NCBI RefSeq assembly: GCF_000496075.1
Contig: NZ_AWXZ01000017.1
Coordinates: forward strand, 1 to 64,000
DNA length: 64,000 nucleotides
From: Lutibaculum baratangense AMV1
GTDB lineage: Bacteria > Pseudomonadota > Alphaproteobacteria > Rhizobiales > Tepidamorphaceae
Direction of reading: 5' to 3'
Shown: one piece after another, positions 42,556 through 58,997 of the stretch
Layout: each line of letters starts with the position of its first letter
Position numbering within the stretch: the first letter of the stretch is position 1
Made by a program: the position numbers and the translations under genes
Notes under the pieces: model-generated
What the model was told of the DNA's origin: nothing
Seen by the model: only the letters and a program-made list of their open reading frames with translations
Databases searched by the model: none

Positions 42556-44118
42556 TCAGGCCTCCCCGTCCTCGACCCGCCGCTTCAGCGTCTCGACGTC
42601 GCGGGCGAGATTGCCGTCGCTGCCGAGAAGCTTCTCGATCTTCCGGATCGCGTGCAGCACCGTCGTGTGGTCGCGATTGCCGAAGCGCCGGCCGATCTCC
42701 GGCAGCGAGCGCGGCGTCATCGTCTTGGCGAGGTACATCGCCACCTGCCGCGGCAGGACGATCGCCCGGTTGCGGCGGCTCGAGACGAGGTCCTGGCGGC
42801 TCAGCTGGTAGTGTGACGAGACGACGCGCTGGATGTCCTCGATCTTCACCGGCGCCCGCTCGTGCTGCGAGACGAGGTCGCGGATCACCTTCTCGGCGAG
42901 CTCGACCGTCACGGGCACGCCGGCATAGCACTGATGCGCGGCGAGCCGGTTGATCGCGCCCTCGAGTTCGCGGCCGTTCGAGGAGACGTTCTTGGCGACG
43001 TATTCGAGAACCTCGTCCGGCAAGTCGACGCGCTGGCCCTGCCGGCCGAGGGCGGCGGCCCGCGCCTCGAGAATCCGGCGGCGCAGCACGAATTCCTGCT
43101 GCCCGACTCCGGCGACGAGGCCGCCTGCGAGGCGCGAGCGGGTGCGCTCGTCGAAGCCCTCGAGCTCGGCAGGCGAGCGATCCGCGACGATCACCACCTG
43201 GCGACACGCCTCGATCAGCGCGTTCATCGTGTGGCCGAACTCGCGGTGCGTCGCCTTGCCCTGCAGGAACTGCAGGTCGTCGATCAGCAGTAGGTCGACC
43301 TGGCGCAGCCTGTCCTTGAAGTCGATCGCGGAATCCGCCCGAAGCGCGGACACGAAGCGGAACACGAACTGCTCGGCGGAGAGGTGGAGCACCCGCCGGC
43401 CCGGCCCGAGCTCCTTGGTACGCCACGCGATCGCGTGCAGGAGGTGCGTCTTGCCGCGGCCGACGCCGCCGTGAATGAACAGCGGGTTGAACAGGGTCTC
43501 GCCGGACGCCGCAGCAGCGGCCACGGCGAAGGCCGTGTCGTGGGCGATCTTGTTCGAATCGCCCGTCGCGAAGCTGTCGAAACGGAAGCGCGGATCGAGG
43601 GGTGCGCTCTCGAGGCCGCCGGCCTCTCCCGCAGGCAGCTCGACGCGCGGCGGCCGCACCTCGCCGCTCGGCTCGACGACCTTCAGCGCGTCTCGCGCCG
43701 CGGCCCGGCGCGGCTCCGCCGGCGCCTTCTCGCACGCCGGCACCGTCGCGACGCCGCGAACCCTGATGTCGACCCGCTGCACGCTCGGCCGCTCCGCGCG
43801 CCACAGCGCGAGAAGCCTCGTGCCGTAGTTGTTGCGCAGCCACATCCGCAGGAACTGGGTCGGCACGGAGAGATGGACGGTGAACTCGTCGGCCTCGACG
43901 ACCGCCACCCCCTTGAACCAGCTGCGGTAGACGTCCTCGCCATACTCCTGGCGAATGCGCTCTACGATGCGGGCCCAGACCGCCTCCGTGGTGCCCGGGG
44001 CATCCTCCGCGCCGCTGCCCTCCGCGTCCGACGCCTGGCAGTCGTCCCTGGTGCTCCCGGCCCAGCGTCCGGTCGCCACACCCGGCCCTCCGAGGACCCC
44101 GTGTCCTGCAAAGTCCAT
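42556..44118 (-). CDS. dnaA: Chromosomal replication initiator DnaA
   Basis: 520 aa. Domain I is at about 45-105 (WARIVERIRQEYGEDVYRSWF). The AAA+ domain has Walker A GGVGRGKT (217-224) and Walker B LLLIDDLQFLQGK. Domain IV carries LSRQDLVSSRRNRAIVLPRQ and FGNRDHTTVLHAIRKIE, the DnaA-box binding signature. ATG 44118 was chosen for its strong AAGGAGG 5 bases upstream; an in-frame ATG at 44154 would overlap the rhodanese stop. The N-terminal 40 residues are an unusual extension. Confidence 0.97.
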   Translation of the reverse strand: MDFAGHGVLGGPGVATGRWAGSTRDDCQASDAEGSGAEDAPGTTEAVWARIVERIRQEYGEDVYRSWFKGVAVVEADEFTVHLSVPTQFLRMWLRNNYGTRLLALWRAERPSVQRVDIRVRGVATVPACEKAPAEPRRAAARDALKVVEPSGEVRPPRVELPAGEAGGLESAPLDPRFRFDSFATGDSNKIAHDTAFAVAAAAASGETLFNPLFIHGGVGRGKTHLLHAIAWRTKELGPGRRVLHLSAEQFVFRFVSALRADSAIDFKDRLRQVDLLLIDDLQFLQGKATHREFGHTMNALIEACRQVVIVADRSPAELEGFDERTRSRLAGGLVAGVGQQEFVLRRRILEARAAALGRQGQRVDLPDEVLEYVAKNVSSNGRELEGAINRLAAHQCYAGVPVTVELAEKVIRDLVSQHERAPVKIEDIQRVVSSHYQLSRQDLVSSRRNRAIVLPRQVAMYLAKTMTPRSLPEIGRRFGNRDHTTVLHAIRKIEKLLGSDGNLARDVETLKRRVEDGEA

Positions 44119-44150: not shown

Positions 44151-44585
44151 TCATGCCTGCACCCACGGGAGCCCCGCCGCCTTCCAGCCCTCGACCGTGC
44201 CCCTGTGCCGCGCGGCGTCGAGACGCCCCTCGAAGCCCCCAGCCACGTTGAAGCAGCTGGAATAGCCGGCCGCCGTCATCGCCGCGGCAGCCGCCGCGCT
44301 GCGCGCGCCGGACCTGCAGATGAAATAGACCGGCACGTCCTTCCTGAGCCCCCGCCGCTCCAGTTCGCTGCCCACCGCGTCGACGAAGCGCGCGGGGTCG
44401 GCCTGCATGCTCGGGAAGGCCTGCCACTCCACGAAGAGTGCCTCGCGTCCGAGCGGGCTCAGGTCCGGCACGCCCACGAAGCTCCATTCGGCCCTGGTGC
44501 GCACGTCGACCAGCACCGCATCGGGATCCTCCGCCAGAGCGAGCCATGTGTCGCTCGCGCTCGGATCCCCCGCATAGTCGCTCAT
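44151..44585 (-). CDS. Rhodanese-like sulfurtransferase
   Basis: 144 aa, single rhodanese domain: VLVDVRTRAEW at the start and active-site Cys90 in YFICRSGARS. Likely a sulfur carrier or thiosulfate/persulfide transferase; substrate unknown. It sits 32 bases upstream of dnaA on the same strand, so dnaA may be partly transcribed with it. Upstream lies the long origin-type gap. Confidence 0.88.
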   Translation of the reverse strand: MSDYAGDPSASDTWLALAEDPDAVLVDVRTRAEWSFVGVPDLSPLGREALFVEWQAFPSMQADPARFVDAVGSELERRGLRKDVPVYFICRSGARSAAAAAAMTAAGYSSCFNVAGGFEGRLDAARHRGTVEGWKAAGLPWVQA

Positions 44586-44893
44586 TCCGTCTTCACTCCA
44601 CGAGATCAGCAGGCGCGCGTCGAGCCGCTTCCGGCCAGGGCCGGACGAGCCGCGACAGATTGTTGTGTATTCTTGAGTTACAGCAGCTGGCGCGCCCTAC
44701 CACGATCCAGCATATGCGGAGGTGAGCACGCACCGAACACTATCGAAGCGACGCCCAAACCTTCCATGAATCATGGTAGAATTCTCCCGTTGCTTGCAAG
44801 CAAGCATGGTATTGGCAAATTTTCTGCTGTGACGCTGGGGCGATCCCCCGAACGTCTTTGAAAGATACACAGCCCCCCCTGAGGAGGCAACCT

Positions 44894-45221
44894 GACTCGA
44901 TTAAGAATCGGTTGCAGTTTGGTGACAGTGTGCCCCTCGCGGCGGGCCGGTCCGGCGAGTCGTTCAAACAAGCTTCTGTAGAGTCATGTGAATCGATTTC
45001 ACGCCGCTCGCCCGTTCGGCCGACACGGCCGGCCGGATTCTTTTGCCTTGACTCTCGAAGACTCTCCGCGGCGATGCGCCACCCGTGTCCAGGCACGCCC
45101 ACTATGGATCATGTGCCTGCAATGACTGGAGAATTTCTGTCTGCTTCAAAGCGCGACCTTATCCACAGGGGCGCACGATATGCGCTTCAACGGACTCGAC
45201 TCCGCGGCCGAACCCGGACTC
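44894..45221. promoter_or_regulatory. Cluster of eleven GANTC (CcrM methylation) sites
   Basis: GANTC starts at 44894, 44905, 44957, 44981, 44990, 45036, 45050, 45060, 45193, 45198 and 45217. About one would be expected in 328 bases. GANTC is the CcrM methyltransferase site in most alphaproteobacteria and its methylation state times dnaA and other cell-cycle promoters. Confidence 0.7.
45159..45167 (+). promoter_or_regulatory. DnaA box
   Basis: TTATCCACA, an exact match to the high-affinity DnaA-binding consensus. Only weaker matches (7 of 9, for example AGATACACA near 44868) were seen elsewhere in the region. Confidence 0.7.
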
Positions 45222-45302
45222 GAAGCCAGCCGTCAATCCCCACATTCGGGTGGAGCCGCCAACTGCCTTGATGACGCGGGCATGACAGGGGCACGACACG
45301 AA

Positions 45303-45330
45303 AAAAGCCCGGGCGACTGCCCGGGCTTTT
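45303..45330 (-). terminator. Intrinsic terminator of rpsT
   Basis: AAAAGCCCGGGC (45303-45314) and GCCCGGGCTTTT (45319-45330) form a strong stem with a 4-base loop. On the minus strand the stem is followed by six T residues. It lies 27 bases after the rpsT stop. The T run on the other strand is shorter, but it may work both ways. Confidence 0.85.
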
Positions 45331-45356
45331 CTACAACCTCGACGTACGGTAACGCG

Positions 45357-45623
45357 TCAGGCGTTCATCGTCTTGATACGATGGGAGAGACGGGAGATCT
45401 TCCGAGAGGCGGTATTGGTGTGAAAGATACCCTTTTGGGCGGCGCGCATGACCTCCGGCTGCGCTGCGCGCAGGGCCTCGTCGGCCGCGCTCTTGTCGCC
45501 GGAGGCGATCGCCTCCTCGACACGGCGCAGGAAGGTGCGAACGCGGCTCCGGCGCGTCTTGTTGATCGCGGTGCGGCGCTCGATCTTACGCACCGCCTTC
45601 TTAGCGGACGGTGTATTGGCCAT
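45357..45623 (-). CDS. rpsT: 30S ribosomal protein S20
   Basis: 88 aa, normal length and composition: [19 protein letters not shown], basic helical core, [19 protein letters not shown] and [14 protein letters not shown]. Assembles into the small ribosomal subunit. ATG 45623 is the family start; an upstream in-frame ATG is not credible. rpsT beside dnaA is the usual alphaproteobacterial order. Confidence 0.97.
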
Positions 45624-58717: not shown

Positions 58718-58997
58718 GTCTCGAAACCTCGCCGCATGCGGCCTTCCTCAAGGTCATACGAGAGGCCAGCATGAAGAAAATGCTTATGCGGCAGGAATAT
58801 ATGCATCCCCACTCGCTGCGGCAAGCGGCACCTCGCCCTTGACTCCGGGCCCGCCCGCCCTCTTTCGACACGGGAACGGCTGTGTTACCTAACCGCGCCC
58901 GCCGCTGCAGCGCAGGCCCAACCCCCAACACCTCCCGGACGAGAGATCAGGTGTCTTTCCTCCGGAGACAGCAGAAGGGACCGCAAGGGAAAAGGGA

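Follow-up and report, generated by a model that had tools for sequence, protein, structure and literature searches.

A cluster of GANTC sites upstream of dnaA in Lutibaculum baratangense AMV1 is a real, non-random feature of the genome, and it probably belongs to a CcrM/GcrA-type, methylation-sensitive control region of dnaA containing conserved boxes that we call A, B and C, a reading that draws on the comparison of dnaA leaders and on analogy with Caulobacter. The cluster lies within the window, the stretch of 64,000 nucleotides that we analysed (positions 1 to 64,000 of contig NZ_AWXZ01000017.1, here C17). A sequence-only reading of the window had proposed a cell-cycle control region here, and this proposal is supported by the presence of ccrM and gcrA in the genome, by the location of the sites upstream of a predicted promoter and by the conservation of some offsets across families. 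The cluster is surrounded by the following elements:

42556-44118, minus strand: dnaA, the replication initiator, 520 aa (TIGR00362, 463 bits, over cut-off; Pfam DnaA_N, Bac_DnaA and Bac_DnaA_C)
44151-44585, minus strand: gene with a rhodanese domain (PF00581), between the promoter and dnaA
44792-44805, minus strand: inverted repeat GCTTG-n4/5-CAAGC, ~50 nt downstream of the predicted start site, found also in relatives G004, G005 and G006 at the matching place
45159-45167, plus strand: perfect DnaA box TTATCCACA by sequence match, the sole one in contig C17
45303-45330, minus strand: terminator-like perfect inverted repeat at the end of the rpsT transcript (12-nt arms, 100% complementary, with A/T tails)
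45357-45623, minus strand: rpsT, ribosomal protein S20, the upstream neighbour (TIGR00029, PF01649)

We placed the start of dnaA at the ATG at 44118 because AGGAGG lies upstream of that codon. An intergenic leader of 771 bp (44586-45356) separates rpsT from the rhodanese gene; dnaA and dnaN come next, and the minus strand encodes all of these genes. The rhodanese gene has the same location in many relatives and probably forms one operon with dnaA. A GGGA-like stretch follows the GCTTG-n-CAAGC repeat of the leader, both here and in its G004-G006 counterparts, and the repeat may act as an operator or form an RNA hairpin. Matches to Rfam were discarded as candidates for an RNA element in the leader, as all of them coincide with the rpsT terminator and none reaches the gathering cut-off of its family, and consensus sites for LexA, CtrA and IHF were not found in the dnaA leader of this genome. 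A long dnaA leader is in keeping with a report from S. meliloti of a 383-nt transcript, sra10, that lies between rpsT and dnaA and runs the same way as dnaA (PMC2245857).

Eleven GANTC sites had been claimed in 328 bases beside dnaA, and our recount of 44894-45221 gave the same number, with sites at 44894, 44905, 44957, 44981, 44990, 45036, 45050, 45060, 45193, 45198 and 45217; a twelfth site of the same intergenic region lies at 44768. How far this exceeds expectation, which had been put at about ten-fold, depends on the null model. With equal base frequencies, arithmetic predicts 1.3 sites in 328 bp (8.6-fold excess), and the rate of the 315-kb contig (1.29 GANTC per kb) predicts 0.42 (26-fold). 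Dinucleotide shuffles of the 771-bp leader contain on average 3.6 sites against the 12 observed (3.3-fold) and reach at least 12 in 3 of 20,000 cases, a stricter null since the G+C content of the leader (59%) is below that of its surroundings (~69% nearby). The excess is peculiar to GANTC: the 15 other palindromic pentamers of the same form show no comparable enrichment over the leader shuffles. The whole window is depleted in GANTC, with 99 sites against 379 expected from dinucleotide shuffles. In contig C17 the stretch 44894-45221 is the densest of its size, the next distinct cluster having 8 sites, and among the other stretches examined in the 4.3-Mb genome, which covered every other place with three closely spaced GANTC, the next-densest 328 bp contain 7 sites, at dnaB. 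It is very unlikely that the cluster is a by-product of the unusual length and low G+C content of this intergenic region in a genome whose genes have been purged of GANTC. Such an origin would agree with the composition of the leader, with the 3.6 sites that shuffling alone yields and with the general excess of intergenic GANTC in CcrM-bearing alphaproteobacteria (PMC3973325), but the 12 observed sites beat the shuffles, and composition predicts neither fixed offsets nor orientation-specific boxes.

The close pairs 45050/45060 and 45193/45198 lie at the positions given for them in the sequence-only reading, which overlooked two further pairs, 44894/44905 (11 bp) and 44981/44990 (9 bp); the last is more informative than the pairs that were named. 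A scan of the leader for the sigma-70 consensus gave no match, after which we located the dnaA promoter by comparing the leaders of relatives. The alignment of same-family leaders shows that a GTG ahead of the -10 is kept as well. Every one of the 11 sites lies upstream of this predicted promoter, at offsets (counted from the initial T of the -35) of -8, -19, -71, -95, -104, -150, -164, -174, -307, -312 and -331. The promoter elements and sites are:

44862-44867, minus strand: predicted dnaA promoter -10, TATCTT (TATCTT in G005 and G006, TAAAGT in G004; 17-nt spacing)
44885-44890, minus strand: predicted dnaA promoter -35, TTGCCT (same element 17 nt from the -10 in family members and in other families)
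44894-44898, minus strand: box C, GANTC at -8, 3 nt upstream of the -35 (recurs at -7 to -10 in relatives)
44905-44909, minus strand: GANTC at -19, CGATTCT, which fits the GcrA-type extended motif YGAKTCK (at -18/-19 in several Aurantimonadaceae)
44957-44961, no strand assigned: GANTC at -71, CGAGTCG, which fits YGAKTCK by sequence match
44969-44994, minus strand: box B, GATTC-ACAT-GACTC-TA-CAG-AAGC-TTG, the GANTC pair at -104/-95 plus a tail (offset and motif recur in other families)
45036-45040, no strand assigned: GANTC at -150 (at -150/-152 in some relatives)
45047-45054, minus strand: box A, GAGTCAAG, with its GANTC at -164 (one of 8 genomic copies; top 8-mer in the leaders of relatives)
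45060-45064, minus strand: GANTC at -174 (most other families have box A at this offset)
45193-45221, no strand assigned: three distal GANTC (-307, -312, -331), with comparable, not identical, distal sites in relatives

The dnaA leaders of relatives were anchored on their best-scoring promoter, using a score that is blind to GANTC. In the anchored leaders, offsets of about -8/-10, -95, -104 and -175 from the -35 recur in other families, as in G050 (-176, -104, -95, -7), G023 (-176, -104, -95), Faunimonas L039 (-176, -95) and Aureimonas L076 (-175, -104, -92, -10). A GANTC is found between -97 and -91 in 14 of 21 leaders of a diverse set, against 1.75 expected, the set being one picked by hand after the data had been seen. 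We therefore repeated the test on an unselected set made up of all same-order genomes from earlier searches with a retrievable leader, 53 in total, mostly one genome per family and seven from the window's own family. The promoter score reached at least 11 in only 21 of these 53 leaders, the Rhizobium and Hoeflea promoters not being anchored. In nine of the 21 promoters a GANTC falls within the same 7-bp window, at -96, a result matched by 3 of 2000 random placements in a test that takes the maximum over all windows and whose statistic ignores kinship. Flanking columns are near random at family distance, which argues against simple inheritance of the offsets. These comparisons support the conservation of some GANTC offsets at the dnaA promoter across families of Hyphomicrobiales.

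Box A, GAGTCAAG read in the dnaA direction, is the commonest 8-mer among the dnaA leaders of 103 relatives, a set rich in Aurantimonadaceae; exactly one copy is present in 63 of the 103, while the opposite orientation and the reversed control both gave 0. Among the 53 leaders of the order set, 16 have GAGTCAA in forward orientation and 3 have it reversed. Across 27 Aurantimonadaceae the seven core columns are invariant (2.0 bits) and the flanks mostly reach 0-0.7 bits; beyond GANTC, the box conserves AAG and then an A/T-rich stretch. It is located at about -175 from the promoter in many families, at -42 in Phreatobacter-like genomes and at -164 here, and this departure from -175 counts against our preferred reading. 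The genome contains eight copies of GAGTCAAG, including one at dnaA and one upstream of dnaB, and most of the copies apart from those at dnaA, dnaB and irr fall within coding sequence. Another, at 58838-58845 of the window, has an Irr/Fur-like regulator gene on one side and a fabA-like gene on the other; read backwards, it may simply be the -35 (CTTGAC) of the latter. A divergent promoter with CTTGACTC, box A read backwards, as its -35 was dropped as a candidate, the relatives having no consistent -10 after it. In Phreatobacter-like dnaA leaders (L029, L031, L034, L035, L038 and L040) a perfect CtrA box, TTAACCATTTATTAA, lies between GAGTCAAG and the -35, which suggests that CtrA controls dnaA directly in these genomes.

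At -95 most leaders contain the sequence GANTC-N1-2-CAR-N4-TTG or a close form of it, and in many cases another GANTC precedes it by four or five nt. A looser form of this box B is present forward in 16 of the 53 order leaders, in reverse in 1, and in 0 of 35 leaders of other orders; its tail is nearly absent next to cores other than GANTC. Searching the genome with a 17-nt form of the box returned mostly coding or unrelated places. Positions 44981-44998 of the window share the 18-nt GAGTCATKTGAATCGATT, with one mismatch, with L016:7551-7568 in the hemE/ppsR region. The palindromic core of this sequence, GANTCANNTGANTC, resembled a dnaA/oriC signature because it occurs just twice in this genome, in the dnaA leader and in the predicted oriC. 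We rejected it as such, as it is not conserved in relatives: the copies in 60 of them are absent from hemE and from the dnaA leaders examined.

GANTC sites are also grouped elsewhere in the genome (G000). Four lie in the 328 bp directly upstream of gcrA (L279:2245-2572, G000 C5). Seven lie within 120 bp, ~440 bp upstream of dnaK (G000 C17:272807-272926; L017:12807-12926), a cluster that is denser per base than that of dnaA and includes a box-B-like GAGTC-T-CAG-CGGC-TTG. A further 328 bp, covering the start of a putative dnaB and sequence upstream of it (L278:1893-2093, G000 C38; the replicative helicase was identified by eye), contain seven sites, and box A, GAGTCAAG, is present there in the orientation of dnaB.

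A role for CcrM methylation presupposes a ccrM gene, and the genome encodes an orthologue at C16:96376-97506, a full-length CcrM-type protein with N6_N4_Mtase and RAMA domains that scores 634.7 bits over 347 of the 350 positions of NF050803, below the curated cut-off of 830. The gene for GcrA is found at C5:27680-28213 (PF07750, 185.7 bits). In Caulobacter, GcrA binds methylated GANTC (PMC3667746). Two published findings speak against our preferred reading: steady-state DnaA in Caulobacter is unchanged in the absence of CcrM (PMC3667746), and GcrA targets are strongly rewired between orders, according to a comparative study (PMC7987155). The motif YGAKTCK, a preference that is uncertain outside Caulobacter (PMC7987155), fits only 2 of the 11 sites, 44904-44910 (-19) and 44956-44962. 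Boxes A and B do not fit it and conserve other bases, and these bases beyond GANTC, together with the fixed orientation of both boxes, suggest a further regulator than GcrA. It is even conceivable, if rather unlikely, that the boxes are sites of a regulator (MucR/Ros, CtrA-related or other) that merely contain GANTC, methylation being incidental or blocked by the bound protein. MucR does block methylation at some promoters: in Caulobacter and S. meliloti it keeps CcrM from certain GANTC (PMC5172544). The conservation of AAG and an A/T-rich stretch in box A and of CAR-N4-TTG in box B would fit such sites, as would the strict orientation of box A despite the palindromic nature of GANTC. This explanation, however, leaves aside the GANTC outside the boxes (-19, -71, -150, -174, -307, -312 and -331) and the fact that local enrichment is confined to GANTC. 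Further, we know of no regulator for boxes A and B.

In the methylation-sensitive control region that we favour, a predicted sigma-70-type promoter on the minus strand, TTGCCT-17-TATCTT, would drive the rhodanese gene and dnaA, and the array of CcrM sites upstream of it would be built into at least three conserved boxes, with box C abutting the -35, box B (site pair and CAR-N4-TTG) near -95 and box A, GAGTCAAG, near -165/-175. By analogy with Caulobacter, full methylation of the sites by CcrM would come late in the cell cycle; the methylated boxes would be read by GcrA, by a further regulator or by both, favouring dnaA transcription. Since dnaA lies ~200 kb from the predicted oriC, the fork would pass it early, leaving the array hemimethylated until CcrM returns, and we propose that dnaA output would consequently fall after initiation. 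The large number of sites could make the switch sharper or more reliable. If the Caulobacter model applies, the array would signal to the dnaA promoter that the dnaA locus has been replicated. We infer methylation, the reader protein and the direction of the effect at this array from that analogy.

The dnaA region had also been considered as a possible origin, where GANTC would act like the GATC of the E. coli origin. The low G+C content of the leader, its one perfect DnaA box, the gene order dnaA-dnaN-recF and the many adenine-methylation sites would all be in keeping with this, but the conserved oriC neighbourhood is found elsewhere on the same contig. The ppsR/RP001-hemE pair flanks oriC in Caulobacter and Rickettsia. 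Here hemE (C17:247791) adjoins a gene of the ppsR/RP001 family (PF03618) in an intact neighbourhood at C17:246.6-248.8 kb, 203 kb from the dnaA region. The hemE/ppsR intergenic stretch contains 7 GANTC and a full CtrA box, TTAACGCATCCTTAA, and parA and parB lie 13 kb beyond this neighbourhood; most family members have the same hemE arrangement with 5 GANTC, usually accompanied by a CtrA box. At dnaA, only the DnaA box at 45159 is perfect, and no other was found there within one mismatch. The cumulative GC skew of contig C17 is uninformative, a shallow curve that has a sharp extremum neither at dnaA nor at hemE and shows no clear switch at dnaA. On the basis of hemE synteny we rejected the dnaA region as the chromosomal origin, and we consider that interpretation extremely improbable. 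Upstream of hemE in the family (L168-L172 and L175), two GANTC in tandem, GANTC-N-GANTC with a 6-bp offset, are conserved immediately ahead of the gene, as is a TGTGGA farther upstream.

More speculatively, and with considerable doubt, boxes A (GAGTCAAG), B (GANTC-N4-GANTC-N1-2-CAR-N4-TTG) and C could form an as yet undescribed cis-regulatory module of dnaA that the Hyphomicrobiales have in common, with CcrM sites spaced by ~80 bp and a methylation-sensitive reader other than GcrA. The module may extend to dnaB and dnaK, that is, to replication and chaperone genes, with a motif shared with oriC. CcrM input to replication initiation is little known outside Caulobacter, and precisely placed, conserved CcrM sites at the Hyphomicrobiales dnaA promoter would offer a concrete, mutable target for testing the link between CcrM and initiation. 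Boxes A and B, in turn, point to a regulator yet to be identified.

A comparative survey from 2010 counted GANTC per promoter with no positional analysis, could not derive control and questioned the existence of a DnaA-CcrM-CtrA circuit in rhizobia (PMC2877005). In 2021, YGAKTCK was scored upstream of orthologues in a study whose text does not mention dnaA among the targets that it names outside Caulobacterales (PMC7987155). We found no published description of boxes A and B in the searchable literature, outside which most subscription papers lie. Caulobacter already provides an example of this kind of control; what appears to be new is the multi-box architecture across Hyphomicrobiales.

The E. 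coli dnaA promoter and oriC carry GATC sites served by Dam and SeqA, which are hemimethylated after fork passage (work cited among the references of PMC8725594). The L. baratangense region shares this logic of an initiator promoter rich in adenine-methylation sites, although the methylase and its sequence differ and any counterpart of SeqA here is hypothetical. It resembles GcrA-activated sigma-70 promoters in having GANTC near the predicted -35, two matches to YGAKTCK and a gcrA gene in the genome, and differs from them in that boxes A and B deviate from YGAKTCK and carry other conserved bases. The CcrM-sensitive dnaA promoter of Caulobacter crescentus likewise has GANTC in the dnaA transcription region of a genome with CcrM and GcrA. 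There, the methylation state alters the activity of the dnaA promoter (PMC3973325, PMC4287350), as it does that of ctrA and ftsZ (PMC3973325), and timing depends on the position of GANTC relative to the -35 and -10 (PMC4287350). In contrast, the putative control region described here has 11 sites in 328 bp arranged in boxes at conserved offsets, and box B is present in 0 of 35 leaders of other orders. Finally, in the RepABC/ori2 module of Agrobacterium, which belongs to the same order, several CcrM sites are also grouped at a replication-initiator gene; GANTC groups occur in its promoter and origin, and hemimethylation has been proposed to limit re-initiation (PMC11514494). That module serves RepC of a secondary replicon and has three groups of three sites, whereas the initiator gene in L. 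baratangense is the chromosomal dnaA.
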